Shown piece after piece: positions 1,642 through 58,432 of a DNA stretch of 64,000 nt; within the stretch, counting starts at the first letter, position 1, and each line of letters starts with the position of its first letter. The position numbers and the translations under genes are program-made. The notes under the pieces are model-generated. The model made no database searches and was not told the DNA's origin. It worked only from the letters and a program-made list of their open reading frames with translations. The stretch is from Bowmanella sp. JS7-9 (GTDB taxonomy: Bacteria; Pseudomonadota; Gammaproteobacteria; Enterobacterales; Alteromonadaceae), in assembly GCF_004329715.1 (NCBI RefSeq), contig NZ_JXSY01000018.1, positions 186,001 through 250,000 on the forward strand, read 5' to 3'.

Positions 1642-1648
1642 CCAGCTC

Positions 1649-2272: not shown

Positions 2273-2303
2273 AAAAAAGCCGGTTAAGTTAACCGGCTTT
2301 TTT
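2273..2303. terminator. Bidirectional intrinsic terminator between the YdeI-like gene and valS
   Basis: Perfect 15-bp inverted repeat (2273-2287 and 2289-2303) with A-run and T-run flanks around a GCCGG core. It serves both the rightward YdeI-like gene and the leftward valS operon. Confidence 0.9.
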
Positions 2304-2321
2304 GTGTTTGGCTGAAACTAT

Positions 2322-10119: not shown

Positions 10120-10206
10120 GCCAGAGTGGCGAAATTGGTAGACGCAGCGGATTCAAAATCCGCCATCCTAACCGATGTGTCGGTTCGAGTCCGACCTCTG
10201 GCACCA
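10120..10206 (+). tRNA. tRNA-Leu (anticodon CAA)
   Basis: 87-base tRNA gene. Acceptor stem GCCAGAG (10120-10126) pairs with CTCTGGC (10196-10202), discriminator A, encoded CCA 10204-10206. Anticodon stem 10147-10151 with 10159-10163; seven-base loop TTCAAAA gives anticodon CAA (10154-10156), reading UUG. Long variable arm and GGTTCGAGTCC T-arm fit a class II leucine tRNA. In E. coli the same isoacceptor gene (leuX) is a known integration site of islands; here phage-like genes begin directly downstream. Confidence 0.97.
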
Positions 10207-27555: not shown

Positions 27556-30500
27556 ATGAGTTGGTTCCGTGGCAATGTCACACTGACACAAGACAGTCAG
27601 AGTGTGACGTACAACAGCGGTGATCCGATTGATAAGCTGAAAGTCGGCTTTTTGTTGGTGGTTGATGGTGATTTCTATGAAATCATCGGCGTGGACAACA
27701 CCCCAGGATCTGAAACTGTTACCCTGTTCAGTGCCTTTTCTAAGACGGGTCTGAACAGCGGTGATCCCCTCACCGTTGATGTGATAGGCATTCCTACCGC
27801 CTATGACTTTGCCGACGCCACGCTGTCTATGCGTGAATTAGCCGTACTTGGCACTAATACCCTGTCAGCCCTCAATGCGTGGGCCACCTCTACCAACGAT
27901 ACCGTTTCCATTACCGATGCGTCCGGCACCGTGCATGTGATTAACACGCTCTACAAAATGCAGAGCGATTATGCCTTGCCGGTGTATGGCGGTGTCAGTT
28001 CAAACAATGGTTTAGCATGGGTCAAAGCCCCCAATGGTGGAAGCTGGACACCGGCTACCACCACCACCGATCTGACGTTCACGTTTTCACGCGGGGCGTC
28101 GGTGGTATCTACTCACGTTATCCGCGCCACACTCGACCCCGCGACCGGCTATATCACAACCGCCACCGAGGGCGCACCAAGCGGTGAAGCGACGACCTTT
28201 AGCCGGATTGGTAATGGCACGTCCAATGTCACCGTTACGATCACCCACAACAACACCGGCATTGCTGTGCCTGTTACCGTGCAAACGACCCAAGGCGGGA
28301 CAGCGATTGCGCCGGAAGTGGTGGAAGTCAGCCCAGGCGTTTACAAAATTATCGGCGCTAACGGTGAAATTACCGTTAAAGACGGCCTGAACGGGGATGT
28401 GCCTACGCTGACAGATAACGGCGATGGCACCTACACCATTGATAACGGGCAGGGTCAAACGCTGGTGGTATCAGACGGCGAGGACGGCTACAGCCCGATC
28501 CACGGCGTTGATTATTTCGACGGTGCGAATGGCGATTTTCATAGCATCATCTTTAAGGTGTCGGTTGACGGTACACCCCCCGCAACTCCGACCGGTGGTA
28601 GCTTTAATGGCACCCTTGAAATCGTGCCTGACGGGTGGACTGATACCAGCCAGTATCAGGGAATTGGTATCGAATACTGCGCCAAGGCGGTGTATCGCCA
28701 CAACCGGCAAACCGACACATGGGCGCGCACCTCTGCCAATTGGTCGGCTCCGGCTATCTTCTCAAAAGCCGGTATCGACGGTGCCAGTGCCTATCAAACA
28801 TGGATAGCCAATGGCGGCGTAGGGACAGAAGAAGATTTTTTACTGTACCTCAACGGCAATGACGGCACCCCTGGTAATCAGTGGTTCACCTCTGCCGGTG
28901 GCCCCCCTGCGTCGGGTACGGGTATTGCCGGTGACTTTGCGTTGGTGGATGGGCGCTACGTCTATAAAAAGACGGACGAAACAACGTGGACGTACCAATC
29001 TGATCTGCTAGGCCCACAAGGCCCACAAGGGCCGCAAGGCGAGCAGGGGCCGCAAGGTGTGGCAGGTGCGAAAGGGGCAGACGGCCAAACGACCTATACG
29101 TGGATCAAATATGCCGATGATGCTACTGGCACCGGCCTGTCCGACGACCCGACTGGTAAAGCCTATATCGGTTTTGCTTACAACAAAACGACCGCTACTG
29201 AGTCCACCACGGCAGGGGATTATACGTGGTCGCTGATCGTCGGGCCGCAGGGTAATACCGGTGTGCAAGGGCCAAAAGGGGATGATGGGCAAACGACCTA
29301 CACATGGGTTAAATACTCTGCCAACAGTGACGGCACCGGTTTAACCGATACCCCGCAGGCGAACACGGCGTACATCGGGATCGCGGTAAACAAAACCACG
29401 GCAACCGAATCAACTAACAAAGCTGATTATGTGTGGAGCCTGTTCAAAGGCCCACAAGGCGATCAAGGCCCACAAGGGCAAACTGGTGCCACTGGTTCAC
29501 GCGGCGCAGCAAACTATGAAATCGTGGTTACGGCAGCGTCATGGAGCGATACCGCTGCCAATAACGTGACCACGGGCGCAAATGTGACCTATGACACGGT
29601 GACGCAATCCAATGTGACCGCAGGGCAGGAATGGTCGGTTACAAAATACTGGAACGGTAGCGCATGGGTGGCAATCAGCCGCGTGATTGATGCGTCGTGG
29701 ATGTTCAATAAAACCACGTTCTTTGCTGATCTGGTGGCCGGTAGTGTGACCGCCGATTTTCTGGATGTGTCGTCAATAGACATTGAGCAGGCGAACTGGG
29801 GCGATAACGTCACAATCAATGCCAATGGCGTGAATTATGACGGCTCGTACCTTGGCAAAGCGTCCATGGCTGTGAACGTGGACAACTATGTACCCTGCGG
29901 GTCGTACTACGATGTGATCTATGGTGCGGGGATCTCTATGAGCATCGACCGTACTTTAGGTGGTGTAGGGGGAAACCCTAATGCGGTGGGCCTGTTCATA
30001 GAACAGAACAACGGCAAAGGCATTCAGATTTTTGCCCAAGATACCACCAGTGCAGGGGATTACGGCATTTATGTGACTGCCTATCCTGGGTGTGCCGGTG
30101 GCGGGATTTATAGTTACCGGTCAGACGGCACGGCAGGCTATTTTCAGTCGGACAATTACATCGCACTTTATTGTGCGTCGTCGCACACGTCTTTGCCTGC
30201 ACTGCGCGTCAGCGGCAACCTAGAAGTGATTGCCGGTGGCACCCCTGGTAATGTGATTATCAGCGGTGAATACTCCGGTGATGATTTTGTCATTTCGTCA
30301 GATCGCAACCTAAAAACCAATCTCAAGCGCATCGACAACCCGCTGCAAAAACTCGACGCGATCCATGGTTACACCTTTGATTGGGTCGATACCACCAAAG
30401 GCAGCGCGTCACACACGGTTGCACAGGAAGTACAGGCCGTATTTCCAGAAGCGGTCAGCACCAAGGCCAATGGCTATTTGCAGGTGTCGCAGGCAGCGGA

Positions 30501-41909: not shown

Positions 41910-42170
41910 ATGGGTTACGGATTATTACAAACCGGTCAGGCAGTGAAAGGTCAGGCGATGCAAGGCATCCGTGACGCCGCCAAGTTAGAACAGCAACGCG
42001 AGCTGCAAGAAGATCAGAATAAACGCATGAAGAAACAGCAAAACGCCACCGCCGCAGGAACCGGCGCAATCGCTGGTGCCTATGCAGGGGCCGAAGCCGG
42101 TTCAGTGGGTGGCCCGTGGGGGGCGGTAATTGGTGCCGTTGCAGGTTATATCCTTTCGGAGATCATCTAA
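41910..42170 (+). CDS. Small glycine-zipper protein
   Basis: 86 residues. Charged helical first half (GIRDAAKLEQQRELQEDQ), then a Gly/Ala-rich hydrophobic C-terminus GTGAIAGAYAGAEAGS and GAVIGAVAGYILSEII (about 50-86) with GxxxG/A spacing. This glycine zipper would suit a membrane pore component of the ejection machinery. TAATG overlap with the next gene. Confidence 0.65.
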   Translation: MGYGLLQTGQAVKGQAMQGIRDAAKLEQQRELQEDQNKRMKKQQNATAAGTGAIAGAYAGAEAGSVGGPWGAVIGAVAGYILSEII

Positions 42171-43561
42171 TGAGTGGGTTAGTCAGCGGCTTTCAGGCCG
42201 GTTTCAATATGATGGATCGCTACTACCGCAACAAGGAAGATGATCGGCGCTGGAACATCCAAAACGAGCGTGCAGAAACGTTGCATGGATTACAAGTGGA
42301 GAACCTTACCCGTGATGGGCAGATTAAGCAGCACACGATTGACCGCCTACCTGAATTGGATCGGCAAGCCGACGCAAGTTTTAACGCCAAACTAACGTTA
42401 ACTGGCTTGCAATCTGAAAATGCGGAAATGGAAGGCGAACTGAAAGGAAAGCAACTTAAAAACTATGACGCTGACCATGCGCGCAAGGTAAGGGCAGACA
42501 ACGCGCAAATAGCGTCAAGTGAAGCGGCAACCGCAGCGTCTAAGGCATCGACTGAATCGTCAACTGTTGCCACGCGCGCCAACAACCTGCGGGTGCAAGA
42601 AGCAGAGCGCAAGGCCAAACTGGACGAAGCGAGAAATGCCTTTTCCGGCTTAGAAAATATCATGGCCGCGTATGAAGCGGGTATGGGAGTCAATTTTCAG
42701 GATGTGTACGAACACGCCAAAAAGCTAGAAGGTACGCAATATGACGTGTTGTTTAACCCCGTTTTACAGGAAACCGCACGCCTGATTCGCCGCGATATGA
42801 GCAATGGCGGGAAGTTATCACAGGAACTGTTGGTCAAGCTGAACAATGGCGGCCTGCCAGAACTGAAAAAATCGGTCGGCAAACCTGGGCGCTTTGGCGC
42901 ACCGATCACGGACGTTGCCATTGTGAATATGGAGCCGGTGGGCGGCAACAAATTTAAGCTGCAAGTGATGGTGCGGGATGCTGACGGCAACGTGTACCCC
43001 TCAGAAGTCAACGAGGGACGGGACGCCAGCGGGGGGAATCCTATCATTTTGGATATGGACACCCTGATGCAGCACTATCAGGCCCAGAACATGATCCTTG
43101 ATAAAGCTGAAGCCAGCGGGTTTATGAGTAAGTTTGGTACAGCAATTCAGGGTATTCGTACCCGTGAACAGGCCGCACTTAGCCGCAGCAGCGCCGTACC
43201 AAGTCAGGTGCGCTCGATGCAGATGCTATCGACCTTATCAAACATCCCGATTGAAGATTTGGTAAGGGCTAAATATCTGGTCGGCAAAGCACCTAACCCG
43301 CAAACCATACATACACAGGCTGTCAAAATGGCGCAAACCGATATGCGATGGATGCGCGCCGATGAAGCGCAACAGCAAGCCTTAATTGATGGTTATAAAT
43401 CGTTCCTGATGCAAGGCGATAGCACAGGCTATGGCCTGACGGGTGGCGAAAACCCGAATGGGGCAAGCCCAGATCAGCGTGAACTTATCGAAGCGTGGCT
43501 TAAAGGCATTCAAGACGCCAATAAAAGCAAACCTACCAGCGCCACTCAACAACCAGAATAA
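42170..43561 (+). CDS. Internal virion protein (T7 gp15-like position)
   Basis: 463 residues from ATG 42170. N-terminal MSGLVSGFQAGFNMMDRYYR, then a long helical coiled-coil region (about 30-180, Ala/Glu/Ser-rich), a small beta domain (about 235-300: FGAPITDVAIVNMEPVGGNK), and a helical end. It directly precedes the giant gene with 16 bases between. Layout matches internal-core proteins such as T7 gp15. Confidence 0.7.
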   Translation: MSGLVSGFQAGFNMMDRYYRNKEDDRRWNIQNERAETLHGLQVENLTRDGQIKQHTIDRLPELDRQADASFNAKLTLTGLQSENAEMEGELKGKQLKNYDADHARKVRADNAQIASSEAATAASKASTESSTVATRANNLRVQEAERKAKLDEARNAFSGLENIMAAYEAGMGVNFQDVYEHAKKLEGTQYDVLFNPVLQETARLIRRDMSNGGKLSQELLVKLNNGGLPELKKSVGKPGRFGAPITDVAIVNMEPVGGNKFKLQVMVRDADGNVYPSEVNEGRDASGGNPIILDMDTLMQHYQAQNMILDKAEASGFMSKFGTAIQGIRTREQAALSRSSAVPSQVRSMQMLSTLSNIPIEDLVRAKYLVGKAPNPQTIHTQAVKMAQTDMRWMRADEAQQQALIDGYKSFLMQGDSTGYGLTGGENPNGASPDQRELIEAWLKGIQDANKSKPTSATQQPE

Positions 43562-43577: not shown

Positions 43578-46500
43578 ATGCCGAACAAAGCCAATCCGTT
43601 TAAAGATTACGATTTGACTAACCCTTACGACATTATTGCGTCTGGGCGAAAACTGGGGTTAAGCGACGAGTTGATGCAACAGCTTGCGCCTGAAATCTGG
43701 GCCGCTGCAAACCCAGATAACGGGGGCTTTCTGGAAACGAAAGCACGCAACCTGGGGAATGCGGCAACTGACTTCGTAGGTAACTTATCCAAGATTACCG
43801 GTAATGCGTTGGGCGGGGCTATTCGAGCGTTGCCAGAATCGTTAGGCGGCGGCGATGAGCGTGCGGATCGGGTATCTGCCAGCCTGAACCGTTGGGGTGA
43901 TAAGGCCCGTGATTTGGTGGACTACCAGCCTGAATACTCTCCTGAATTGCTCGAATCAAAAGGTGGGGTAACGTTTGGCAACGTTTACGGCTTTATCAAT
44001 GAGCAGATGATTCAGTCACTGCCTGAAATGGCCGCTGCCGTCTATGCCCCTCATGCGTTTGCCGCGTCAACCGAACAGCGATTGGCAGAAGATCGGGCGA
44101 GAAATAACAACCGTGTCAATCCGACTGGGGAAGATTACTTGTCGGTTGCGCCGTTTACCGCTGGTGTCATGGCACTGGAACGCTTGGGCGCACATAAAGC
44201 CTTTGGATTGGACGATGGACTTCGCGCATCCGATATTGCCCGTGTCACAGACGACTTGGTTGACGGTGGTTCTAAGCTGGCAATTGCGAAAAACGCGAGT
44301 CATAAAGTTGGCGCGGCGGCGAGTGTCGAAGCGGGAACGGAATTCTTGCAAGAGGGCTTAGAATACACTGCCGGTACTTTGGGAACCGTAGAGGGCTTTG
44401 ACGGGTGGGACGCATTTAAGCAAGGCGGCTATGGTGCGTTAGGTGGTGCCGGTACGGGTGCGCAGCTACGCGGTGCAGCTAACGTGTGGCAAGGTGTTCA
44501 GCACAAGCGCACGTTGGACAAACTGGCTGACGAGGGTTTAGCGTTTGATTTGCTGACCTTGCAGAACGAAGAAAAGCGTCTTGCGAAGTTGCAGGATGAT
44601 GTGGCGAACATTAACCAGCCACAACACGATCCTGCCACCCAAGCCCTGCTACAGCGTTACGACCGACTGAATGCGGAAATTGAATCGCTGTTGAATCCTG
44701 TTCAAATGCGTGACCCGATGGGTGCGGCCAATGATCCAATGTGGGCAACAGAGGGGGAGCAGACCAGCACTTTGAATATCACGGTGCCAGCTTCGCAACC
44801 TAGTGCAGATATGGATCAGTTGGTTGAGCAGGCCACCTTACTTGATCCTGAATATACCGCGCAGGTAATGAAAGATGCAGAGTCCATGCGTGGCAATGTC
44901 ACTGACGATATGGTGGACGATTACCTGCTTGAAAAATTGACAGGTATTGTTGACCAGTCACCCGCCTATAAATATTCACGCGGCTTGCTGAATATTGAAT
45001 CCGATCCGGTATTGGACGAGTCCACGCAAGCAAACCAAGCACCACAGCCAGAAGCAAACGCCACTACCACACTACCGGAACAGAACTTTGCACCGTCAGA
45101 CAGTGACGTTGACACGACTATTACCGATCCGCTGGTTAAAGGGTTGGCAGAGTGGAATACACAAAATGACGTGGATTACATACAGAAAGATCCGGCACAT
45201 ACTGTCCTGCACGGCTTACGCTCTCATTCAAAACAGGGCAGGTCGTTTGATGAAGCGATCAATTTTGATGAAGAAACACAGGCATTTTTTGGTGGATTGA
45301 CGCCAGATGCGCAACAACAATTGCGTGAGCGCTACGAACAAGGCGCAGATGCAATCAACAGTCTGTATAAACTTTACAATCAGCAAGTGTCTAAACCTGG
45401 GCAGCAAAAAGCGCAACGTGCGCTGGATGAAAAACGCTACAGCAAAGATTATCTGGACTACAGCGAACATTACCAGAATCACCCAGAAGAAATCCCTGAA
45501 CAGGATTCAGCCGGTTGGCAGTTCTTGGCAACCAGCACACAGATGAGTAAACAAGAAGTCGCTCTGTTGCAAAAACAGTTGTACGGCGAAACACCGGCAC
45601 CGGCCAAAACCCCACCTAAAGCCAAAAAGCTGAAAGAAAACGACACGGAATTTCGCAGCCATACCGGCAATACGTTTAATTCAGTGTCCGAAGCGGAAAA
45701 AGCGCGCAAGGAAAACGGCTTAGAAAAAACAACGTTTGTAAGTAAATCGGGTCGTAAATCGTTTGTACTGAAAAAGGTCACGCCTTGGTCTGGTAAGCAG
45801 CAGGTTACGGTAGACGATTACACCGATTACAAAGGCACGTTGGGCGCTATCTTCATTCCTGAAAACCAAGCTGCAACGCAACAGCTTTGGGATATTGCGC
45901 GCACAGTTGACCCGCAGGCCCGTTTATTGAAAGTCAGCCCAAGCGATAATCGGCAAGGGGTGGTTTTCAGTAGCCAAGAGAAAGCCGAAGCGGCGATAAA
46001 GATGCACGGGATTAGTGTCAATGGCGGTGCCATGATAATGCCTAATCTCGATACGAAGTTACCGGCCACTACTGCGAAAACTGAAACCGAGCAAGAAAAG
46101 TCAGCGCCTGCCGAAGAAACAAAACCGTTTAACTTTGGCAGTAAGACACAAAATAAATTCGACAGTGAAGCCGACGCTGAAAAAGCCAGGTCAAAACATG
46201 ATCTGCAAAAGGTGTCGTTTGTCGAGAAGATAAAAGGGAAGCTGCACAAGTGGAAGTTGACCAAAGTGCGCGCATGGAATCCGAAACGTGTTGTGGTGAT
46301 GCGGGATTTGTTTGAAAAAGGGCATGGTCAGCAACAAGGTGATAAACCGCCCCGCGCTATCTTCTACGTTAAAGACGACAGCATTAAGCATCAAGATCAC
46401 TTGTGGGAAATTGCTAAAACAGTTGACCCTCAAGCAGAAAAAATCGTTAAAACAGATGCTAAAGATCAGCTTTCTACCGAAAAATATTATGGTGTTGGCT

Positions 46501-49500
46501 TTAGTTCTCAGGCGCTGGCCGAGAAAGCAATGAAGTTACATGGCATTACCATTGAGGGTGAATCAGATCACTACCCGAACTTTGATGCCAGCCCAGAACT
46601 AAGCAACGAACAGGCGGCAGCCAATACAGCCAGTGACTTACTGCACCCGTCAGACCCGCGCAATAAGTTGGTAATTAGTAACTTTTCAGGCAACAACGTT
46701 GTACTTTCAGCCAAGGGAAAACCGTTTCCATCCCGTGAAATCGCTTGGAAAGCGCTTGTTGATAATGGGCTGGTTGGTATTGCAGCGGTCATAAAATCAA
46801 AGGATGGGTCAAGCGGTAAGCCTATTTACCAATTGCGTTTAGTTAAACCCCTTGAACCACACGAAAATGTGACAGTCCATCGTTTTGATGATCAATACGG
46901 TGCAAGTGTTCATTACCTGAAAACGCGCCATCCCTCAGTATCTGATGCACTGGTGTTAGCTGCCCATACCGCAGGGTTAAAAGACGTGCGGATTGGCAAG
47001 GCACCTGATGGTAGCCGTACCGTCTTTATTTATACCGCTGATTTTTTAGAACGGTTGATTGCGGTGTCAGGCATTAACGTTCATGTTGGAAATGATGTTC
47101 ACCACTTAGCGGCTAAAGTTGCCAACGCTGCAACAAGGGAACAGGCCGATCAAAACTATGAACGCCTGTTAGCAAGATGGGAAGCAGTTAAAAACCATAA
47201 TGAAAACAGCAGAAAATCTGGTAAGAAATCTGTAGCTAAAAAAACCGATAAAGTCAGCACTTTTGGCAAGTTGCAGAAGCTGAAAAATTACTACTTTAGA
47301 AATCCTGACTTCAAATTACAGCCGGTTAAAGAATCTGACCAATTAACCCCTGCGGAAGAAGCGGAATTGGCAGAGTATGTTAAGGAACAAAACTACCATT
47401 TCCTACTTGAAACGACCCACCCAGATTCAACAACTAATAGCGTAGTAAATGACCTGTTTTCAACCGGTGAACTAAACGGTATTCATGCACTGATAAGTAA
47501 GTTGCGCGAGGCATTTAACGACCAAGTAACCGTGTTGGATGACATACTGCAAGACAGTGGCCCTCACCAGCAGGCATTTGAAAATCTTACCGAAGTATCA
47601 AAGGATTTTATTCGTGAAAAACTGCAAGAGGGGTCACTTAAAACCTTTTTGATTGCCGCTAAACAACGCCAAAAAGAAGATATTGACAATCAAACCCGTG
47701 CGGGACGCCCCCGCTTCGGTACGCGGCCTGAACCAAGAACGGAACTGTTTAACGGCGATAACAATAAAATCTTCACTAAAGATAAGGCGGAAGAAGCCAA
47801 GGCGAAGATCCGCGCGATTATGGCTGGTCGCGCCAATAGTGGTATTGACCCTGAACTGTTTACGGCGGGTATGACGCTAACCGGCTACTACGTGGAAGCG
47901 GGTATGCGTAACTTTAAAGATTACGCCGCGCAGATGGTGAAAGATTTTGGCGAAAACATTAAGCCTTATCTGTTGTCTTTCTGGGAAGGGACGCGCGCCT
48001 ATCCTGGGTTAGATACAGCGGATATGACGAAATCTGACGACGCTAAACAGATCCTGACTGATCTGGACTCGATGCTGGAAGATGAAGCTGATGTGGACGG
48101 GGAACCTGAAACCGTTGACGACAGTTCAGTGGATAAGCCAGCGATGGAACAGGCGCTGTTTATGAGCCTGTTTGATGATGCCGTCGATACTATGCACGAA
48201 TCTGCTAAAAGTTTCCTACCGCATGATGCGCTTAGTTTCAAAATGTATATCGCCAAGAAAATGGGTATTAAGTCGAAAGACGTTACCTATGAAATGGAAA
48301 AATACGCGCAGGAAATTTTAGAACGGGCCATGTATAAAGCGCTTCGCCTGCAAGTCGTTGGTTCAGGCTGGAACCGTGCAGCGTTTGATGAAGTGATGGA
48401 AAAGGCGAAGAACCTTTATAATGCACAACCAAAGTTGAATGTACGCACCGGCAAAAGTCAGCGCCTACAGGCATTCTCAACCCCTCTGCCGCTATCACTT
48501 TTGATTAACCGTGCGTTGGGCATGTGGACAGAAGAATTTGGCGGCAAGGTTGAATTTGGTGATGCTGTCAATGAAGAAAAGGTACTGGAGCCGACAGCGG
48601 GTAACGGGCTGTTGTTGCCGCTGGTGGAATTGGGTAACAACCTGACCATTAACGAGATCATGCCCGATAGAGTCAATCAGATTGGCAAGGCTGGTCTGAG
48701 TGCTGGACGACGCACAGGGGCCACTAACGTACTGTCCAAGGATGCGGTTACTGAGGACTTGGTAGAAGCAGAGTCGCAAGACGTTGTAATTATGAATCCG
48801 CCGTTTGGCCCGTCTGATACATCGTACACGGTGACTGGGGTTGATGGACTGGATTACACGTTAACTGATATGGATCACATTATCGCAGCGCGTCAGTTAC
48901 AGGCGATGGCAGATTCTGGTCGGGCAGCGTTAATCCTGGGCAGTTCGCGCGACGGGAAAATTAAGGGTAAAGGCCGCGTTTTCTTGAACTGGCTCTACAA
49001 TAATTATATTGTTGCCGACCACTTTGACGTTGACGGTAAAGTTTACGAGCGCCAAGGGGCCGCATGGCCGATTCAGGTCGTGATTATTTCTGGGCGTCGT
49101 ACTACTGACAACGATAATTATGCCCCCACCAAACTTGACCGCGTAAAGGGCGAAACTGCTAATGATATTTTCAACGCCGTTGAACAGCGACTGGACGATA
49201 ACGGATTTCTGGATTCCCACGAGTGGGATCACCGAGCCGTCGAAGCTGACTATGTTAGCGATGGAAATGCCAGTATCAGCCCCAATATCGCGCCAGATGA
49301 TAATGCAGGGACTATTCAGAAAGTTGGAAAAGGAAATAAAGGAAATAAATCCACAAAAGAATCTGGCGTACCTGATACCGGAAGAAATGGAAATGATGGG
49401 GCCAATGGAACTGGCGTGGTCGATAGCAGCGGAGATAGAACGGACACTGGTGCCGGAACTGGATCTGTTGCAGGAAACACAAAACTGGATAAACGGGATA

Positions 49501-52500
49501 ACCCCGATTCACAAAAACCTGATAAAGAACCAACTAAAGGCGGTTCCCACCTTGATTCTATTCTTAGAAACCTGCAATCCGTCGAGCGTCTAAACGACTA
49601 TCAGGCCGCATATAAAACCGGCTCACGCGGTAGCAATAATGGGGTACTCATCCCGTTCAATATGGCAAAACAGAATCAGGCTGCGTTAGCTTCTCTGATT
49701 TCCCGCGTAGGCGATCTGGACGAATATGTTGCCTACCACCTTGGCTACAAAGACGTGGACGATATGTTTGCCAAAGCTAATTTCATGGGCTTGCAGGTAG
49801 ACTCACTCGCACTGGCAATCGACAAATATTTTAACGGCGGCAAAGCCATTATCATTGCTGACCAGACGGGGGTAGGTAAGGGCCGTCAGGCTGCGGGTAT
49901 GATTCGCTTCGCCATGCAACAGGGATTGTTACCGGTATTTATCACCGCCAAGCCAAACCTGTTTACCGATATGTATTTTGACTTGCTGGAAATCGGCTTA
50001 GAACCGAATGAAATCAACGCATACATAATGAACAGCGGTCAACGTATCACCTCTGAAACAGACGGCGGCAAGACGGTTACACACCAAGAATCACCGAAAC
50101 AGAAAGAACATCAAACCTACCTGAAACGTATGAATGCAGGTCAGGCTGAAATTGGCAGCAGTGCTTTCCCATTCAATATGATCATGGCTACCTACTCCCA
50201 GTTTGCAATGCAGTCGGCACGTAAAGGGGCATTGCTTGGCGTGATGGAGAATGCCTTTTTAATTTTGGATGAAGCGCATGAAGCGTCAGGCGAATCGTCT
50301 GAAACCGGCAATTATTTCAGACAGGTAGTGCGGGATGCCAAAGGCATTACCTACTTGTCGGCTACGTTTGCCAAACGCCCCGATAACCTGGGCTTGTATT
50401 TCCGTACTTCGTTAGGGGATGCGGCTAACTCAATTCAGGAATTGCAAGATGCGTTGTCAGCAGGTGGCATCCAGATGCAAACCCTGTTGGCGGCCATGCT
50501 TACCGAATCCGGCGAATTATTGCGCCGTGAACGTTCTTTCGAGGGGATCACGATTGAAGATCGCTTTGATAAGAAAAACCGCGATACGCACGTCAAGCTG
50601 TACGACAGTTCAGCCAGAATCCTGCAAGAACTGATTGCCTTTTCTAATAAGTTTAAGGATTTTATCAAAGACGAAAATGACAAGATTAAGGCAGGCGCAC
50701 AACTCATCGGCACCAGCAACATTGAACAGCTAAACCCCTATAGTTTTGCGTCGGTGGTGCATAATTATATCCGCAACCTGACCATGGCAATTAAAGCGGA
50801 AACCGTGGCACAGCGCGCAATTGATATGGTTAACACAATTGACCCGAAAAGCGGTAAACCCTATTCACCGGTTATTGCGCTTGACTCCACGATGGAGTCA
50901 ATAATGAAAGCGTACATGGACGACAACATGATTTCATCGGGCGAAAGTATTGAGGGCTACAGCTTTTCAACGTTGTTTGAACACGCGCTGCGTTCAACTA
51001 TGTCAGTGACGGAAAGAAAACCTAACGGCGATACAGAAAAAATCTACTATCACGTTGACGACCTGCCTTATCACTTGCAGGTTCATGTTGAAAAGATCAG
51101 GGATATGGTGGCCGCAACAGACTTTGATGCACTGCCGGTTTCGCCTATTGATTATATCCGTAAACGCCTAACTGACGCCGGTATTTCCAGTGGTGAATTA
51201 ACTGGCCGGACTAATGTGTTGGATTTAGACAAAATGGTGTTTAACACCAAGGCCAACGTATATGGTGATAAGCCGCGCCGTGAAATCGTGGACGACTTTA
51301 ACAAAGGTAAGATTGGTGTACTCATTCTTAACCGTGCTGGCTCCACCGGTTTGTCGATTCATGCGTCAGAAAAAGAATCCGTTACCAACAAAAACCCCCG
51401 CCACATGATTGTGGCGCAACCGTCGCTTGATATTAACGTATTCATGCAGATGCTTGGACGGATCAACCGTACCGGACAGGTGGTGTTACCCAGTTACGAA
51501 TTATTGTGGCTGGACTTACCCAGTGAAAAGCGTCCCGCTGCGGTACTGCGCGGCAAAAGCCGTTCCCTGAATGCGAACACCAGTGCTAATACCGATTCTG
51601 CAACCTCTGTGGATGGGTTGGATATGCTCAACCATTACGGTGATGAAATCATGCGTATGTACCTATCCGAAAACCCAGATATTTTGATTAAGTTGGGGTT
51701 AAGTGCCACTGGACTGAATGAACGGGAAGAATTGGCCCGATACATTACGGGCAAGATGGCGGTATTGCCTACAGAAGAACAGGAAGAATTATTTGCCGCA
51801 GTGGAACCCATGTATGAAGAATATGTGGCGCAGTTAAAACAAACCGGCAACTTCCAGTTGGAAACAACTGAAATGGATCTGGATGCAACGATTGATGAGC
51901 AACAGATACTGGAAGAAGGGGATAACACCAATGCCTTTGACCGTGACATAAAGCTAAACAATGCCGATGTGAAAACACAGGGTAAGCCAATGTCCGGTGA
52001 AGAAATGCAGCAGCTTCGCTCGTCACTGGATAGGATAGCAGGGGCTGAACTGTTTGATAGTTTTGCCAACGCATTCCAAACCTATATCTACGAGCGCTAT
52101 GCACAGCGCATTGCTGATGCGACTAAGGCGATTGAACGCGCACACGGGCAGCCGGATAAGAAAATTAAGGAATTACAGGACGCCTTACGGGAAATCGAAG
52201 CGCGCAAGGCTAAAGAAATGAATGCCGCACAGGAACTAAAACACCTGTTACATAACCGTTTGCGCCTTGGCTCTGCGATTAAGCTGGAAATCGACGGTGA
52301 AATGGTACATGGGATGGTTACGGATATTAAGCATTCCAATGACGGCAAAGGCAATCCGTATGCCCCTGGTAAATTCAAAATCAAACTGGCACTGGCACAC
52401 CCTCTGCGCCATGTGAACATTAACGCAAGCCAAGTTATGACAGGCAGCGGCACGTTCAAAGTGGTGGATATGAACCACGTACCGCCAGAGGGCTTGCGAA

Positions 52501-55500
52501 ATATTTTTGATACTGAACACATGAAGCCGCAACGGGGTCAGCGTTACATTCTGACCGGCAACCTGATCAAAGCATTCTCTAAAATCGACGGTGGCAAGGT
52601 AATTAACTTCACCACCCAAAAGGGACAGAACGAGACTGGCATTTTGCTGCCAAAAGACTTTGACCCCGCTAATGGCATCAAAGATAAGTTGTACGTCACC
52701 GATGCGCCTAGCATGTTCCGTTATCTGAACGAAACTAAAGACGCGACCTTACGTTCCTTTGGTATTCGCAACGCTGATAACTTCGGCTTTGCACGGGTTG
52801 AAAAAAGCGGTAGCACACAGTTGGTCATGGTGGTGCCAGTTAGTAACGCGGCATTGCGTAAGCGCTATGCGTCGGAAGAAGTGAGCGCCATTCTCGGACG
52901 GGAAGTAGCGTGGCGTAACGGACAGAAAGCCGTATCAATTGAAGTGACCGAAGAACAGGCCACCAAAATCTTTGATTTGTTCCAAGAGCAAACCCCGTTT
53001 GCGTTGACTGGCAGTGCGCTCGAAGAATTTGCCCGTATTAACGGTATTGAAGCGCGCGGGGATGATTGGAATACCGAAAACCTATTCTGGGATAAGAATG
53101 AGGAAGTAGACCATCAACGCCGCGAAATACTGGGGATGATTGGTCGATTATCACTAATATCGACTGGCTTAATCGGGGCGGGGGTTGGTTCAAAAGCGTT
53201 AATACCGGCTGATAATACAAAAACAGGCGAAGTAACACCGCTATCTGTTGACGCGCTGCACGCCAAATTACCTAAAGAAGTGGAAGCGATTTTGCGTGGT
53301 GAAGGGAAATTAAAACCCGCCTTACAAGCGCTCATAAAATTAGCCCCACCAGAAATAAAAGCGTTAGTGCAAAAACTTAATTCATTAGTCACATCAAAAA
53401 GTAACGCAAACGTGATTATTGATGATGATGGTCACTGGAATGCGAATGGCGCAGTAGACATTAAAGATGGTGAAATTCGTATGCGCCTTTTTAATGCCAA
53501 GCTGAATGACGGGACACAGCTAAGAGGGTTGAGTTATGGCACGTTCTTGCATGAAGCGCTGCACACTGTTGTTCTTTCACGATATGCGAAACTTTCAGTT
53601 GCCGCGTACCCTGAAAATTTTGGCAAGTTAGGCCAGGGAGATCCTAAAGCGGCGGCAGCGCTGCAACAGTTTACGAATTTGTGGCGGGAATTTAGCCTAG
53701 CGTTTGGAACCGTCAAAGATAAGCCAATCTGGCTAAAAGAGGCTTTAAACACTCCAGACGAGTTATTTGTCAGGGCGCTGACCGACCCTAATCTGCAACA
53801 CCTTATGGCGCAAAAGAAATACAAAGGCCGGACGCTGTTGCAGCGGTTTAAAGACTGGGTGAAACGAATGTTGTTCAGCTTAGAGGGTACGCATCCATCA
53901 TGGCTGGACGCCGCGCTTGTTGGTGCGAATGACTTGCTGGATGCCATGGCTAACGACCCAGATAACTTGGCTATGATTGAAAACTATATCGCCTTAACGA
54001 GTAAGAGTAGTGGCGGCAGCGCGCATTATGATCTTAACGAAAACCCATCAGAGCAGTCCAAGGGTGGCCGCAAACGCTCTAATCATTTGTCCCGTCTAAG
54101 TAGCGAAGTGAAATCCTACTTTAAAAAGCTGATGGATAAATACGGGCGTGAAAAGGTACTCAAAGTATTACCGCTTTCTGAAATGGCGGATCTATACGAC
54201 CACATGACTAACGGTGCATTGCAACGTTATTACGACCTGACAGAAGCCTATGCGGCATACAAAGCCAAGGCATTGCAGTATGCCGAAAAGCACGTAGAAG
54301 AACGTTGGGCTGACCTGCAAAAAACCAATCCCGATGAAGAACGCCGTATGTCTCATATTATGCTAAACGCGACTATGAGCCAGTTGTCACCGGATGTTGC
54401 ATTTGTTGATCAGAAAATCGTTCAGTCGCTAAAGGCACGGATCGCACAAATTGAACTGGATATGCAGGCCCACCCGAAAGGGGGCAGCTTGGGTCAACGT
54501 GAATATAAGGGCGATCTTGAACAGAAACTGATTGACCTGAAACGGGTCTACAGGGATTTGCATAAAGAGTGGAAAACACTTGCCAAGAATTCACCGCAAG
54601 CGCAGCAGCTTTACCTTGATGTGCGTGAACACTACAAAGTGATGTGGAATAAGACGAAAGAATACCTGATTAAACGCATTACTGAATTAGAGGGTGACAA
54701 CAAACATAAAACCGCACTGATTGATAAGGTGAAACTTCAGTTTGAAAAAGCGGTGCAATACGGTGATTACTTCCCGCTTTTCCGTACCGGCAATTACATT
54801 GTGACTTCGACCAAGGATAAGGGCCGTGACTTTATGGTGACGCGCCACGAAACACTGGAAGAAGCCGAAGCCGAAGTAAAGGCCATGGAAAAAGAGGGGT
54901 GGAATTCATCATACAAAGTTGAAGCGAAAGTAAAATCCAGCGGCCAAACGTCAGTATGGCAAAGCGGTAAAGAAATCCTGGGGGCAGTGGAAAGCATAAA
55001 TTCCCGTGCGCGCTTGGGGCAGTTACCGGAGCATAGCGGTGGACTGGTGTATGAATTCAATGAAATGGAAACGCTGTTTGAAAAACTGTCAGATGGGGCC
55101 GCGAAGAATGCGCTTATCGACCAGATTTATCAGGTGATGTTGGATTCATTGCCGGAAGCGTCAGCGGCTAAACACTTTATACACCGTAACCGCGTCAAAG
55201 GTGCCAGCGCTGACCAGCGCCGTGCCTACGCGCACACGATTTACCATAGCGTACAACGTGCCGCCAAAATCCAGTACCAACACAAACTGGAAGCGGAGAT
55301 CATTAACATGCGCAAGTTGGCTGATGATGTGACTGGCCGCGATAATATTCTGTTGCAGCAAGTAGCTGACTCTGTGCAAGAACGTCATGATAAGACAATG
55401 AACCCTAATGGCTCTGCGATCTCTGCGTGGCTAAGTGGGTTTGGTTTCCACTACCTGCTAGGTGGCAGTGTGGCCGCTGCCACTGTGAACATGACCCAAG

Positions 55501-57083
55501 TGCCGTTGGTTTCCGTGCCGTATCTGGGTTCTATCTATGGCTACCGCAATACCAAAAATGCCATGTTTAAAGCCTACGCTGACGCACTGGGGTCTAGCCT
55601 GAATTTGGCACAAGGCAAAGGTGTGAAGCGGATATGGAAAACGGTGTCGCAGGTTGACTCGATTATTGATGTGACCAACAACAATAAGAACCTGTCAGAA
55701 ATGGAAGTGAAGATGATCAAGCTATTGCAGGATCGGGGCAAAATTGACGTAACCCAATCACTGACCATCGGGCAGACAGCCGACACAGACACCAAGGATT
55801 ACACATGGCACAACCGCCAGCGTGGGCAAGCCATTTTGCGTGCGTGGGGTTCGATGTTCCACAACGCCGAAGTGTTAAACCGCCAAGTAACCGCGTTAAT
55901 GACTATTCGATTAGAACTGGCGCGCAACCCCAGAGTGTCAGAAGAACGCTTGTATAAAATTGCTGCCAAAGCGATTGATAGCACACAGTTCAATTATGCG
56001 GCTCATAACCGTGGCATGTGGACGCGCGGGGATTACAGCAAACTTATCTTCATGTTTAAAACCTACTCGGTGAACATGATTAGTTTGATGGTGAAAAATA
56101 CCATGCGCGCGCGTAGAGGGGATGAGCAAGCTAAAAAATTCCTGATTGGATTTATTGGTATGCACGCGCTTGGCGCGGGGGTGTTTGGCATCCCGTTGGT
56201 CGGTATGTTCTTTGAACTATTATTCGGCCTGTACGATGCTCTGGATGATGATGATGATCCAGACAACTATGTGCGTTTTGTGGATGAATTGATCATGACA
56301 GTGGCTAAAGAACTGGGCATGAATGATTACTTTGCGGATAAAACCAGCGTGGCACTACGCAAAGGCATTATTAACGCGACACTCGGCATAGATATGGCAA
56401 GTCGCGTCGGGCTGGATTCGATGCTTTGGCGTGCAGAGACTGACCCAGAAGATACCGCATTTGAGCGAATCGCCAAGCAGCTTGCCAGCCTGACACCACT
56501 GACCAATATCTTTGGCAATATCGTTGAGGGTGGCTCTATGTTACACGAAGCCATTTGGTATAAAGGTGGCGATCCTGAATTGGCAATGAAAGGGGTAGAA
56601 AAATTCCTGCCAAACGGCGCTGGCGATTTGTTTAAGCCAATCCGCCATGGTGTGTATGGGCAGACGACTCGCGCTGGCAACATGGTTATTCCCGCAGACG
56701 AGTTTCAGGATTTCACCGGTATTCTTTCACTGATGGTCGAAGCTGGCGGCTTTAATACTGAACGTATGCGCGATGTGTATGAACGCCGGTCGATTCAGTT
56801 TAAAGAAAACAAATACCGTGAAAAGCGTCGGGCCTTGTTGATGGATTTAGCGAAGTTTGAAATGCGTCGTAATGATGTTGTGTCGGACGGCACCCTGACT
56901 CTGATTGACCGCTTTAACCGTGATAACCCAGATATGAAAATCATTACATCGTCTATTACTAACAGCCTAAAGGCACAGCAGGCTTATGAACAACAAACTG
57001 TTGATGGTATTCGCTTGCAGAAGAAACAGGAGTGGCGCAGAGATCGCCGTCAATACTTTGGTAAGGATGAAAAGCAGGACTAA
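43578..57083 (+). CDS. Giant polyvalent virion protein: adenine methyltransferase, Strawberry-notch helicase, zincin
   Basis: 4501 residues. Order seen: hydrophobic/Gly-rich N-terminal region (to ~315); three related domains (~685-840, 848-1010, 1025-1180); a conserved helical module (~1389-1490, AGYY-type VEAGMRNFKDYAAQMVKD); an N6-adenine methyltransferase (~1560-1850) with motif I EPTAGNGLLL (~1671) and motif IV NPPF (~1739); a Gly/Asp/Lys-rich linker (~1915-2000); an SF2 helicase of Strawberry-notch type (~2020-2800) with DQTGVGKGR (~2095), LDEAHE (~2231), SATF (~2263) and QMLGRINRTGQ (~2624); a zincin-like HEALH (~3325); coiled coils; and C-terminal hydrophobic segments (~3950-4000, ~4185-4215). 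Such proteins (DarB-like, large polyvalent proteins) are packaged and ejected to shield incoming DNA. Position at T7 gp16's place supports ejection. Confidence 0.9.
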   Translation: MPNKANPFKDYDLTNPYDIIASGRKLGLSDELMQQLAPEIWAAANPDNGGFLETKARNLGNAATDFVGNLSKITGNALGGAIRALPESLGGGDERADRVSASLNRWGDKARDLVDYQPEYSPELLESKGGVTFGNVYGFINEQMIQSLPEMAAAVYAPHAFAASTEQRLAEDRARNNNRVNPTGEDYLSVAPFTAGVMALERLGAHKAFGLDDGLRASDIARVTDDLVDGGSKLAIAKNASHKVGAAASVEAGTEFLQEGLEYTAGTLGTVEGFDGWDAFKQGGYGALGGAGTGAQLRGAANVWQGVQHKRTLDKLADEGLAFDLLTLQNEEKRLAKLQDDVANINQPQHDPATQALLQRYDRLNAEIESLLNPVQMRDPMGAANDPMWATEGEQTSTLNITVPASQPSADMDQLVEQATLLDPEYTAQVMKDAESMRGNVTDDMVDDYLLEKLTGIVDQSPAYKYSRGLLNIESDPVLDESTQANQAPQPEANATTTLPEQNFAPSDSDVDTTITDPLVKGLAEWNTQNDVDYIQKDPAHTVLHGLRSHSKQGRSFDEAINFDEETQAFFGGLTPDAQQQLRERYEQGADAINSLYKLYNQQVSKPGQQKAQRALDEKRYSKDYLDYSEHYQNHPEEIPEQDSAGWQFLATSTQMSKQEVALLQKQLYGETPAPAKTPPKAKKLKENDTEFRSHTGNTFNSVSEAEKARKENGLEKTTFVSKSGRKSFVLKKVTPWSGKQQVTVDDYTDYKGTLGAIFIPENQAATQQLWDIARTVDPQARLLKVSPSDNRQGVVFSSQEKAEAAIKMHGISVNGGAMIMPNLDTKLPATTAKTETEQEKSAPAEETKPFNFGSKTQNKFDSEADAEKARSKHDLQKVSFVEKIKGKLHKWKLTKVRAWNPKRVVVMRDLFEKGHGQQQGDKPPRAIFYVKDDSIKHQDHLWEIAKTVDPQAEKIVKTDAKDQLSTEKYYGVGFSSQALAEKAMKLHGITIEGESDHYPNFDASPELSNEQAAANTASDLLHPSDPRNKLVISNFSGNNVVLSAKGKPFPSREIAWKALVDNGLVGIAAVIKSKDGSSGKPIYQLRLVKPLEPHENVTVHRFDDQYGASVHYLKTRHPSVSDALVLAAHTAGLKDVRIGKAPDGSRTVFIYTADFLERLIAVSGINVHVGNDVHHLAAKVANAATREQADQNYERLLARWEAVKNHNENSRKSGKKSVAKKTDKVSTFGKLQKLKNYYFRNPDFKLQPVKESDQLTPAEEAELAEYVKEQNYHFLLETTHPDSTTNSVVNDLFSTGELNGIHALISKLREAFNDQVTVLDDILQDSGPHQQAFENLTEVSKDFIREKLQEGSLKTFLIAAKQRQKEDIDNQTRAGRPRFGTRPEPRTELFNGDNNKIFTKDKAEEAKAKIRAIMAGRANSGIDPELFTAGMTLTGYYVEAGMRNFKDYAAQMVKDFGENIKPYLLSFWEGTRAYPGLDTADMTKSDDAKQILTDLDSMLEDEADVDGEPETVDDSSVDKPAMEQALFMSLFDDAVDTMHESAKSFLPHDALSFKMYIAKKMGIKSKDVTYEMEKYAQEILERAMYKALRLQVVGSGWNRAAFDEVMEKAKNLYNAQPKLNVRTGKSQRLQAFSTPLPLSLLINRALGMWTEEFGGKVEFGDAVNEEKVLEPTAGNGLLLPLVELGNNLTINEIMPDRVNQIGKAGLSAGRRTGATNVLSKDAVTEDLVEAESQDVVIMNPPFGPSDTSYTVTGVDGLDYTLTDMDHIIAARQLQAMADSGRAALILGSSRDGKIKGKGRVFLNWLYNNYIVADHFDVDGKVYERQGAAWPIQVVIISGRRTTDNDNYAPTKLDRVKGETANDIFNAVEQRLDDNGFLDSHEWDHRAVEADYVSDGNASISPNIAPDDNAGTIQKVGKGNKGNKSTKESGVPDTGRNGNDGANGTGVVDSSGDRTDTGAGTGSVAGNTKLDKRDNPDSQKPDKEPTKGGSHLDSILRNLQSVERLNDYQAAYKTGSRGSNNGVLIPFNMAKQNQAALASLISRVGDLDEYVAYHLGYKDVDDMFAKANFMGLQVDSLALAIDKYFNGGKAIIIADQTGVGKGRQAAGMIRFAMQQGLLPVFITAKPNLFTDMYFDLLEIGLEPNEINAYIMNSGQRITSETDGGKTVTHQESPKQKEHQTYLKRMNAGQAEIGSSAFPFNMIMATYSQFAMQSARKGALLGVMENAFLILDEAHEASGESSETGNYFRQVVRDAKGITYLSATFAKRPDNLGLYFRTSLGDAANSIQELQDALSAGGIQMQTLLAAMLTESGELLRRERSFEGITIEDRFDKKNRDTHVKLYDSSARILQELIAFSNKFKDFIKDENDKIKAGAQLIGTSNIEQLNPYSFASVVHNYIRNLTMAIKAETVAQRAIDMVNTIDPKSGKPYSPVIALDSTMESIMKAYMDDNMISSGESIEGYSFSTLFEHALRSTMSVTERKPNGDTEKIYYHVDDLPYHLQVHVEKIRDMVAATDFDALPVSPIDYIRKRLTDAGISSGELTGRTNVLDLDKMVFNTKANVYGDKPRREIVDDFNKGKIGVLILNRAGSTGLSIHASEKESVTNKNPRHMIVAQPSLDINVFMQMLGRINRTGQVVLPSYELLWLDLPSEKRPAAVLRGKSRSLNANTSANTDSATSVDGLDMLNHYGDEIMRMYLSENPDILIKLGLSATGLNEREELARYITGKMAVLPTEEQEELFAAVEPMYEEYVAQLKQTGNFQLETTEMDLDATIDEQQILEEGDNTNAFDRDIKLNNADVKTQGKPMSGEEMQQLRSSLDRIAGAELFDSFANAFQTYIYERYAQRIADATKAIERAHGQPDKKIKELQDALREIEARKAKEMNAAQELKHLLHNRLRLGSAIKLEIDGEMVHGMVTDIKHSNDGKGNPYAPGKFKIKLALAHPLRHVNINASQVMTGSGTFKVVDMNHVPPEGLRNIFDTEHMKPQRGQRYILTGNLIKAFSKIDGGKVINFTTQKGQNETGILLPKDFDPANGIKDKLYVTDAPSMFRYLNETKDATLRSFGIRNADNFGFARVEKSGSTQLVMVVPVSNAALRKRYASEEVSAILGREVAWRNGQKAVSIEVTEEQATKIFDLFQEQTPFALTGSALEEFARINGIEARGDDWNTENLFWDKNEEVDHQRREILGMIGRLSLISTGLIGAGVGSKALIPADNTKTGEVTPLSVDALHAKLPKEVEAILRGEGKLKPALQALIKLAPPEIKALVQKLNSLVTSKSNANVIIDDDGHWNANGAVDIKDGEIRMRLFNAKLNDGTQLRGLSYGTFLHEALHTVVLSRYAKLSVAAYPENFGKLGQGDPKAAAALQQFTNLWREFSLAFGTVKDKPIWLKEALNTPDELFVRALTDPNLQHLMAQKKYKGRTLLQRFKDWVKRMLFSLEGTHPSWLDAALVGANDLLDAMANDPDNLAMIENYIALTSKSSGGSAHYDLNENPSEQSKGGRKRSNHLSRLSSEVKSYFKKLMDKYGREKVLKVLPLSEMADLYDHMTNGALQRYYDLTEAYAAYKAKALQYAEKHVEERWADLQKTNPDEERRMSHIMLNATMSQLSPDVAFVDQKIVQSLKARIAQIELDMQAHPKGGSLGQREYKGDLEQKLIDLKRVYRDLHKEWKTLAKNSPQAQQLYLDVREHYKVMWNKTKEYLIKRITELEGDNKHKTALIDKVKLQFEKAVQYGDYFPLFRTGNYIVTSTKDKGRDFMVTRHETLEEAEAEVKAMEKEGWNSSYKVEAKVKSSGQTSVWQSGKEILGAVESINSRARLGQLPEHSGGLVYEFNEMETLFEKLSDGAAKNALIDQIYQVMLDSLPEASAAKHFIHRNRVKGASADQRRAYAHTIYHSVQRAAKIQYQHKLEAEIINMRKLADDVTGRDNILLQQVADSVQERHDKTMNPNGSAISAWLSGFGFHYLLGGSVAAATVNMTQVPLVSVPYLGSIYGYRNTKNAMFKAYADALGSSLNLAQGKGVKRIWKTVSQVDSIIDVTNNNKNLSEMEVKMIKLLQDRGKIDVTQSLTIGQTADTDTKDYTWHNRQRGQAILRAWGSMFHNAEVLNRQVTALMTIRLELARNPRVSEERLYKIAAKAIDSTQFNYAAHNRGMWTRGDYSKLIFMFKTYSVNMISLMVKNTMRARRGDEQAKKFLIGFIGMHALGAGVFGIPLVGMFFELLFGLYDALDDDDDPDNYVRFVDELIMTVAKELGMNDYFADKTSVALRKGIINATLGIDMASRVGLDSMLWRAETDPEDTAFERIAKQLASLTPLTNIFGNIVEGGSMLHEAIWYKGGDPELAMKGVEKFLPNGAGDLFKPIRHGVYGQTTRAGNMVIPADEFQDFTGILSLMVEAGGFNTERMRDVYERRSIQFKENKYREKRRALLMDLAKFEMRRNDVVSDGTLTLIDRFNRDNPDMKIITSSITNSLKAQQAYEQQTVDGIRLQKKQEWRRDRRQYFGKDEKQD

Positions 57084-58432
57084 TCGAATAGTCCCGCGAC
57101 TTTACTAAGCAAACCGGTATCAAGTTGGGATTCGTTAGCTGGCACCAGTGCGCGCGGGTCGCGCTCTACGGCGGCTAACAGTTCCTGCCATTTCTCGATC
57201 CACTCTTTTTTCAGGTGGTAGAGCGTCCCAAACTGATAACTTTGGTTCACGCCTACCGCCAGTTTGTGATTCAAAATGGCGTCTGTCACCTCTTTGCTTG
57301 CCCCCTGGTTCTGCAAATGCGTGGCGATAGTTTTACGGAACATTTTAGCTGTGAAGTGCATCCACCCATGCGCCTTTTGAAACTCTTTTGCGGTCAAGCT
57401 GCCACGTAGCGGCAACGGCGTGTAAGGGTCTACATCGAAAAACAGATACATATCCGGTGTGAGTTTGCCGACCTGCTCTTTTATCCGCTGAATATGGATT
57501 AACAGCAGTTCGACCACATTCTGCGGTAAATGCGTCCAAGCCGGTTCTTTGTTTTTCATGCACGCGGCAGGATGTTCTATTCGCATCATTTGCCAATTGA
57601 TATGTTGCATTTGCACGCGCGTCCATTCGTCAGAGCGCACGCCAACCCGTAACATAACTTCGGCCAATACTTTCACCCATGGCTTGAGCCTGTCTTGCTG
57701 ATGAAGTTCGTTCAGAAAGGTATGCAGTTGCGTCGAGCCAAGATAGTGCTTGGTGGGGTGTAACCGCACTTCGTTTAATACTTTTTTGCGACCGAATGCC
57801 GGATTGGCGTTGATAATGTTTAGTTCCACTGCGTAACTGAACACCACGCGCCCCGCTTTATGGGCATTAAGCGCTGCGCCCTTTTTCTTCTGATTATTGG
57901 CAATATCCATGATCAGGTTATCCCACATGACCGGTGTAATCAGGTTGATAGGATGGGTGCCATAAACAGGGAATACATGGTTAGTCAGTGCTGCGCTGTA
58001 GTCTGCTAGTGTGTCAGGATTGCGACCGGCGTTTTGCCAATCATCCTTAAACCGTTCAAATACGCTGAATAGGCTGTTCTTACTGCTTTTCAGTAATGCC
58101 ATATTGGTGACGCGGCTTGCAATCAGGCGCTGTTCTAATTGCTCGACTTGTGGATCAACCCCGCTTTTAAGCTGGTTGATGAATGACTTGTAGCGTTGTT
58201 CGATTTCAGACAACGGCAGATCAGGGTATTGGCCTATGCGAATAACATTGCGCCCACTGGAAACGGGACGCTGATACCGCAGTTGAAAATGGCGGGACAC
58301 ATTGCCGTCAGCTTTTCGGCTCAATTGCAGTTGCAGACCTGCGAAATTATCAAAGGTATACACCACTTTTTTTGCCAGTTTGGGTAGTAACACCCGGCTA
58401 ACTTCACTCTCGCTAAATGCTATTTTGGGCAT
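57080..58432 (-). CDS. int: P4-like tyrosine integrase
   Basis: 450 residues. N-terminal arm-binding domain of DUF4102 type (RHFQLRYQRP ... VIRIGQYPDLPLSEI), then core-binding and catalytic domains. Catalytic set: Arg266 in GVRSDEW, Lys363-x-x-Arg366 in AKMFRKT (Lys replaces the common His of box II), His389 in ILNHK and nucleophile Tyr399 in QSYQ. P4-like integrases usually target tRNA 3' ends, agreeing with the tRNA-Leu junction. It is the last gene of the leftward operon and converges on the giant gene with stop codons overlapping by 4 bases, so it is not next to the attachment site as is usual. Confidence 0.92.
   Translation of the reverse strand: MPKIAFSESEVSRVLLPKLAKKVVYTFDNFAGLQLQLSRKADGNVSRHFQLRYQRPVSSGRNVIRIGQYPDLPLSEIEQRYKSFINQLKSGVDPQVEQLEQRLIASRVTNMALLKSSKNSLFSVFERFKDDWQNAGRNPDTLADYSAALTNHVFPVYGTHPINLITPVMWDNLIMDIANNQKKKGAALNAHKAGRVVFSYAVELNIINANPAFGRKKVLNEVRLHPTKHYLGSTQLHTFLNELHQQDRLKPWVKVLAEVMLRVGVRSDEWTRVQMQHINWQMMRIEHPAACMKNKEPAWTHLPQNVVELLLIHIQRIKEQVGKLTPDMYLFFDVDPYTPLPLRGSLTAKEFQKAHGWMHFTAKMFRKTIATHLQNQGASKEVTDAILNHKLAVGVNQSYQFGTLYHLKKEWIEKWQELLAAVERDPRALVPANESQLDTGLLSKVAGLFD

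Follow-up and report, generated by a model that had tools for sequence, protein, structure and literature searches.

A giant predicted polyvalent protein with a methylase, a Strawberry-notch helicase and a probable zincin in a Bowmanella prophage

A single gene of 13.5 kb stands at the end of the virion genes of a prophage. The window analysed here, a stretch of 64,000 nucleotides from Bowmanella sp. JS7-9, contains an uninterrupted frame on the + strand that runs from an ATG at 43578 to a stop at 57083 and encodes 4,501 residues, as the initial annotation had stated. A search of the source contig returned an open frame of 4503 aa without internal stops that contains the middle part of the giant protein. 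Features of the protein, all on the + strand, are given below by residue and by window position. Passages of PMC5512222 (Iyer et al. 2017) define polyvalent proteins as single phage or mobile-element polypeptides with at least two domains of unrelated activity, and name delivery with the DNA at infection as a trait of such proteins. The archetype of the methylase-helicase dyad given in the same passages is P1 DarB; the dyad joins an EcoKI/TaqI-like methyltransferase (MTase) to an SF2 ATPase, with LPD36 and its GXGU motif on the N-terminal side. A Strawberry-notch variant of the dyad is mentioned there as occurring "in a few instances", a share that refers to all polyvalent proteins. These passages also rank the zincin, which probably processes the chains and in some cases has a HEXXXH form, first in frequency among the domains of the class, and list LPD39 as a potentially enzymatic domain.

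The initial annotation had read the gene as a large polyvalent protein of the DarB/Bcep22 type encoded among virion genes, and the modules and the late-gene context agree with that reading. The prophage covers about 60.4 kb between likely attachment sites, which are formed by an exact 20-bp repeat from the anticodon region of a tRNA-Leu(CAA). The attL core lies inside the tRNA-Leu at 10145..10164 (+ strand) and the identical 20 bp start at 70512, past the window end; the IMG/VR record of the same provirus has 59,810 bases. The giant gene closes a series of phage genes for head and tail, being preceded by genes for the terminase large subunit, a head-tail adaptor, the major head protein, structural proteins, and tail proteins and fibres, with an internal virion protein (phrog_511) also among these late genes. 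An integrase-like gene (57080-58432) follows on the opposite strand; it lies well inside the prophage and adjoins neither of its ends.

A DarB-like protein in a comparable position is known from the Bcep22-like podovirus JC1, where gp69 (4515 aa) was detected in purified virions by mass spectrometry with 51 unique peptides, as reported in part of PMC9144972. The comparison with a Bcep22-like giant that the initial annotation had proposed was borne out in size, in the position as last gene of the virion run and in the region 1384-1504, which at 50% identity is the sole blastp match between the two proteins, but not in the enzymes or the C-terminal module, since the window slices gave no methylase, Strawberry-notch or C-terminal match in gp69. 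A 481-aa gene just upstream of the giant gene (42116..43561, + strand) takes the place of the JC1 virion protein gp68, a likeness of position only: the gene matched no PHROG at E<=0.001, its phmmer match to JC1_gp68 (E 0.29) was below the inclusion threshold and lends homology no support from sequence, and its match to Skul27 (E 0.013) was also below that threshold. Gene 40651-41259 matches phrog_611, a family that also comes second among the matches of both JC1 gp64 and a similarly placed Skulduggery gene; for the phrog_610 and phrog_596 genes of the window there was no counterpart among the 10 JC1 and Skulduggery proteins scanned.

Two enzymes could be recognised in the middle part of the protein. 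The predicted adenine-type DNA methyltransferase occupies residues ~1573-1900 (48294..49277) and carries the motifs STP (1634-1636), EPTAGNG and NPPF (1740-1743, in the form NPPFG). All three align with those of Bacteroides phage BS-TP4 and Acinetobacter phage MD-2021a in our methylase-helicase alignment (A1), with the A of EPTAGNG replaced by I in the latter. Pfam gave no match to the methylase at E<=1, and the three-row A1 profile matched one solved putative methyltransferase at 0.00049. The Strawberry-notch ATPase follows with an N-terminal lobe at residues 2089-2343 (49842..50606; AAA_34, PF13872, 1.5e-13) and a C-terminal lobe at residues 2554-2761 (51237..51860; Helicase_C_4, PF13871, 5.2e-15), both above the Pfam cut-off; it contains GVGKG at 2098 and DEAH at 2231, and the Walker A, DE-H and GRxxRxGQV residues are conserved in A1. 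The initial annotation had proposed both enzymes, from NPPF and from GVGKGR/DEAH, and had named degenerate active sites as a possible refutation; the alignment shows the motifs of both enzymes intact. Judged from these domains and motifs, the identity of the predicted methyltransferase and Strawberry-notch helicase is clear.

The order of these elements is that of the dyad, with a TP motif in the N-terminal part of the MTase, NPP(Y/F), and then a C-terminal SF2 ATPase (Walker A at 2098). LPD36, with its GXGU motif N-terminal to the MTase, gave no match in the whole-protein Pfam scan at E<=1, although the library may lack an LPD36 model. Together with the LPD39 domain, the MTase motifs and the Strawberry-notch helicase in one open frame within a prophage make this a polyvalent protein as judged from its predicted domains. 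Two further conserved segments flank the enzymes. The domain at residues 1396-1500 (47763..48077), which precedes the methylase, was found by tblastn, blastp and slice scan to be common to many DarB-like giants, with 31-55% identity by tblastn in Bcep22-like and other phages. The segment past the helicase, residues ~2880-3050 (52215..52727), is possibly a barrel, the match to the HAS-barrel PF09378 (E 0.0088) being below its cut-off.

Relatives were collected by profile searches with A1, in which the best 80 of 399 relatives were kept from genome contigs and 62 were obtained from viral contigs, one of the latter being the window's own provirus. Open frames of at least 150 aa were cut from 147 loci (152 minus five window copies) and scanned with eleven window slices. 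The methylase slice was matched by 143 ORFs, the post-helicase slice 2850-3080 by 105 and slice 1330-1560, which covers the preceding domain, by 41. Methylase and helicase slices were both matched by 138 ORFs, one in each of 138 loci out of 147, a proportion that is no measure of fusion frequency because all but six loci had been chosen by methylase-helicase fusion. A plain length cut divides these ORFs into 81 giants (>=2,600 aa) and 57 shorter ORFs, of which 19 and 13, respectively, were cut by the locus end. Motif patterns were sought no more than 60 residues from the matched span, and the results are therefore presence counts and not alignments: NPP[FYW] and Walker A were present in 138/138, [ST]TP in 136/138, DE[ASC]H in 135/138, GRxxRxGQ in 134/138 and motif I in 132/138.

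The HEALH metallopeptidase of the initial annotation was upheld in its motif. HEALH is located at 3325-3329 within a probable zincin-like segment at residues 3310-3434 (53505..53879), and E3395, which aligns with a glutamate in two relatives, is the candidate third ligand. A lone HExxH was not accepted as proof of a zincin, as it arises in shuffles of the window tail at a frequency of 0.0525, and a second HExxH at residue 1881 was rejected as a zincin because it sits between methylase and helicase. Comparison of the segment by hhalign with a profile of the HExxH segments of two other giants (L148 and L050) gave 82.9% and E 9.1e-6 for this single comparison over 112 columns, a match that takes in both the HExxH and the glutamate region behind it. 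An iterated search with the three-row zincin profile found L148 and L050 as the only sequences below 1e-3. The larger zincin groups gave 30.9% at most (in the largest group, with HExxH uncovered) and otherwise less than 4%; Pfam gave nothing on the segment at E<=0.1, PDB sequence searches with alignments A2 and A3 reached best E-values of 0.61 and 0.4, and tblastn of the zincin alone found nothing in phages up to E 1. AlphaFold2 with a 14-row alignment did not recover the zincin fold (pLDDT 46.5).

After the helicase, HExxH occurs in 39/81 fetched giants (2.2 expected from 50 shuffles per tail) and HExxxH in 42/81 (2.3 expected by the same procedure), and one or the other in 73/81 (4.4 expected in shuffles). 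Many of the 81 giants are near relatives and were thinned by helicase identity; at 90, 70 and 50%, either motif was still present in 54/61, 35/42 and 22/27 groups, with 3.1, 2.2 and 1.5 in shuffles. Eight giants have neither form: four are truncated at their far end, two measure less than 2,900 aa, and two (L111 and L121) are long and complete. Only 2/57 shorter methylase-helicase ORFs have either motif after the helicase. Because of the L148 and L050 profile match and this recurrence in giants as opposed to shorter ORFs, a zincin in the giant protein is considered probable.

These results also decide whether the arrangement is new. The initial annotation had supposed that the exact set and order of modules might be new, a view that we abandon: methylase, Strawberry-notch helicase and zincin motif form a recurrent set and order, because it is found in 73 of the 81 fetched giants (22 of 27 groups at 50%) and because the 11 of 138 fetched ORFs that contain the window's C-terminal module have the window's module order without exception (11/11). 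Nine of these 11 carry HExxH between helicase and C-terminal module, L014 and L020 carry HExxxH there, and two, L058 (Paracoccus onchidii) and L019 (Sediminimonas), also have the 1396 domain. Nor is this an undescribed counter-defence system, for which the initial annotation had put it forward as the strongest candidate in the window, for the class, the dyad and its Strawberry-notch variant are already described in passages of PMC5512222, and the window protein is a distant new branch of that class. A separate observation concerns the longest of the scanned ORFs, a 7,177-aa frame from a viral contig (L137, 335-21865), which has two matches to the 1396-type domain and one HExxH before the methylase and contains the same methylase-helicase block.

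The distance of this branch was apparent in a FastTree helicase tree built from the window and 118 of the 138 ORFs, the others having been removed as duplicates, for a short helicase span or as cut frames below 2,600 aa. The window row groups with two Vibrio giants, L013 and L014 (support 99), these being part of a seven-giant group (98), and it has a long branch, for which the program gave a warning; its highest helicase identity among the tree rows is 43% over 755 columns. Given the starred branches of this tree, the label must have switched between giant and shorter six times or more. Since the labels depend on the plain 2,600-aa cut and some cyanobacterial ORFs are just above it, these switches do no more than suggest that exchange or trimming happened repeatedly. 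A search of phage records found no DNA nearly identical to the window, single-protein scans of viral contigs for close relatives returned only the window's own provirus, and a survey of the host family matched 1/196 genomes, the window's own.

Comparison with named systems places the window protein among mosaics. By the description in passages of PMC5512222, the Strawberry-notch polyvalent proteins, with Methylomonas WP_020485828.1 as an example, share with the window the MTase with TP and NPPF; a Strawberry-notch SWI2/SNF2 ATPase on the C-terminal side, a zincin-like motif, LPD39 and a late-gene context are likewise common to that class and the window. BS-TP4 gp3 (5391 aa) and giants of Bacteroidales have the 1396 domain, MTase and Strawberry-notch helicase arranged as in the window, gp3 at 29% identity over window residues 1396-3057, and the C-terminal module was not detected in gp3 by blastp or slices. 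L058 (4738 aa) and L019 (4608 aa) follow the order of the window through 1396 domain, methylase, helicase, following segment, HExxH and C-terminal module; unlike the window, they have no repeat A or B (see below) and their zincin segment has no confident match, and identity in the enzyme block is ~30-31%. L014 (3568 aa, on a Vibrio ruber contig) has methylase, helicase, HEILVH, LPD39 and C-terminal module in the window's order, at 35% identity over 1568-3158 and 25% over 3662-4482, but differs in a shorter N-terminal part and in the HExxxH form (HEILVH) instead of HExxH. Such a mosaic would be expected of the class as a result of domain shuffling.

The C-terminal part was recognised from other phages as well. 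LPD39, which the initial annotation had not named, lies at residues 3524-3720 (54147..54737; PF18858, 2.2e-11), and a C-terminal module common to DarB-like giants by PHROG, tblastn and blastp covers residues ~3662-4483 (54561..57026). The match of residues 3525-4485 to phrog_10089, "DarB-like antirestriction", at 2.3e-90 is no test of function because it concerns the C-terminal part, outside the enzymes. The last 1501 residues gave tblastn matches in 71 phage records, and blastp matched the module to L014, L058 and L019. Hydropathy in 19-residue windows exceeds 1.4 only at 3184-3202 (53127..53183; 1.48) and at 4198-4216, within the C-terminal module; of the hydrophobic ends described in the initial annotation, the C-terminal one may stand at most, but there is no peak near the N-terminus.

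The same module raises the question whether the giant might be mainly structural and aid DNA entry as a large internal virion protein or ejection protein, with enzymes as passengers useful only against some hosts. The module is common to Skulduggery, douglas 12A4 and Microcystis phage Mwe-JY07, where no Strawberry-notch match was detected (by blastp, Skulduggery has a 24% match to part of the methylase, and douglas 12A4 and Mwe-JY07 have no enzyme match), and the position of the gene, last among the virion genes, would suit such a role. A passenger would not, however, need the catalytic motifs that are kept in nearly all of the 138 relatives, and the enzyme block is also found in 57/138 ORFs below 2,600 aa (13/57 being cut by the locus end). 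We consider a mainly structural role unlikely.

The reading that we prefer, and think probable, is that the giant is an injected, DNA-protecting polyvalent protein of the DarB-like class. It is favoured by the modules, the motifs kept family-wide, the late-gene context, the zincin-type motif behind the helicase in 73 of 81 giants, the presence of JC1 gp69 in virions and the precedent of P1 DarB; the unrecovered zincin fold, the distance of the relatives and the failure of the larger groups to match the zincin profile count against it. According to passages of PMC5512222, P1 DarB is located in the virion head and gives protection to DNA in cis, and part of PMC9024508 reports that its first 30 residues suffice as a signal that targets a reporter to the capsid. 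The restriction countered by P1 DarB is of type I. By analogy with these relatives, the window protein would be made late, would most likely be packaged in the virion and would enter the cell with the phage DNA. The Strawberry-notch ATPase would then move the methyltransferase along the incoming DNA, in keeping with the proposal, in passages of PMC5512222, of an ATPase that tracks on the DNA as it enters and a methylase that marks this DNA, and adenine methylation would cause host restriction enzymes to ignore that DNA. The zincin would probably cleave the giant polypeptide into functional parts or act on host proteins, and the C-terminal module and LPD39 may serve packaging, ejection or a further activity.

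Another use of the methylase, namely marking host or phage DNA for regulation or replication, for example to start replication of the injected genome, would fit the jump-starting of transcription or replication listed among polyvalent themes in passages of PMC5512222 and the shorter Bacteroidota and cyanobacterial methylase-helicase proteins that are not obviously antirestriction, but we hold it to be quite improbable, as P1 DarB, studied better than any other member, acts against restriction (passages of PMC5512222 and PMC9024508) and the Pfam scan recognised no replication domain in the giant. Examples of shorter methylase-Strawberry-notch proteins are a 1567-aa protein of Cyclobacteriaceae (L078, 9740-14440) and a 2289-aa protein of Adonisia turfae (L025, 9839-16705). 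A PADLOC comparison of three proteins gave MTase_I at 1.4e-4 and mad2 at 0.0029 for the window methylase-helicase block, nothing at E<=0.01 for the Bacteroidota protein L078, and, for the cyanobacterial L025, mad2 at 1.9e-11 in the methylase portion together with, near the C-terminus, a DRT-type RTasDnaG-like model at 1.5e-6.

The protein thus forms a remote branch of an already known class of injected giant phage proteins, and its odd feature is the tandem alpha/beta repeats at 688-1215. These are what the window protein adds to the Strawberry-notch polyvalent proteins (Iyer et al. 2017), and our searches found no relative of them. The region before them, residues 1-320 (43578..44537), has no recognised enzyme and no Pfam match at E<=1; within it, residues 107-207 and 246-296 match a 4362-aa ORF (L037) at 2.9e-7 and 0.0017. 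Repeat A (residues 688-850, 45639..46127) and repeat B (residues 862-1045, 46161..46712) share 38.5% identity at 1e-22 in a three-sequence comparison, in which a possible, weak repeat C (residues 1075-1215, 46800..47222) matched A at 22% identity (E 0.002) and had no significant match to B; a third copy is thus doubtful. Tblastn of phages and plasmids up to E 1 gave no relative, 1/369 examined genomes of the class matched (the window's own), the viral contigs gave only the window's own provirus, and the best E among 3,511 ORFs was 0.47.

AlphaFold2, given the repeats alone as a three-row alignment, predicted an alpha/beta plait-like model for repeat A with a mean pLDDT of 70.0, a block pLDDT of 78-89 over segment residues 51-130 and the topology E-E-H-E-E-H-E. 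Foldseek against the PDB gave no match at E<=0.001. Structural ties at Z 5-6 connect the model to translation initiation factor domains of eIF2D, aIF1 and eIF1, the fold of which we take to be SUI1, and may reflect merely a common arrangement. An RRM is not claimed for the repeats because RRM_1 (0.0071) was below its cut-off, as was DUF4469 (0.00075) on the same slice, and because of this possibly common arrangement. As a tentative idea, which we think unlikely, the repeats might constitute a new nucleic-acid-binding or DNA-threading module that, as part of an injected multi-enzyme protein, loads the methylase-helicase onto the entering genome. If they do bind nucleic acid, they would offer a handle on how giant injected proteins engage entering DNA. 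Among the late genes upstream, short 9-base repeats were observed at 29010-29479 within the gene of a 1004-aa tail protein. In frame these look collagen-like (Gly-Pro-Gln) on our own interpretation.
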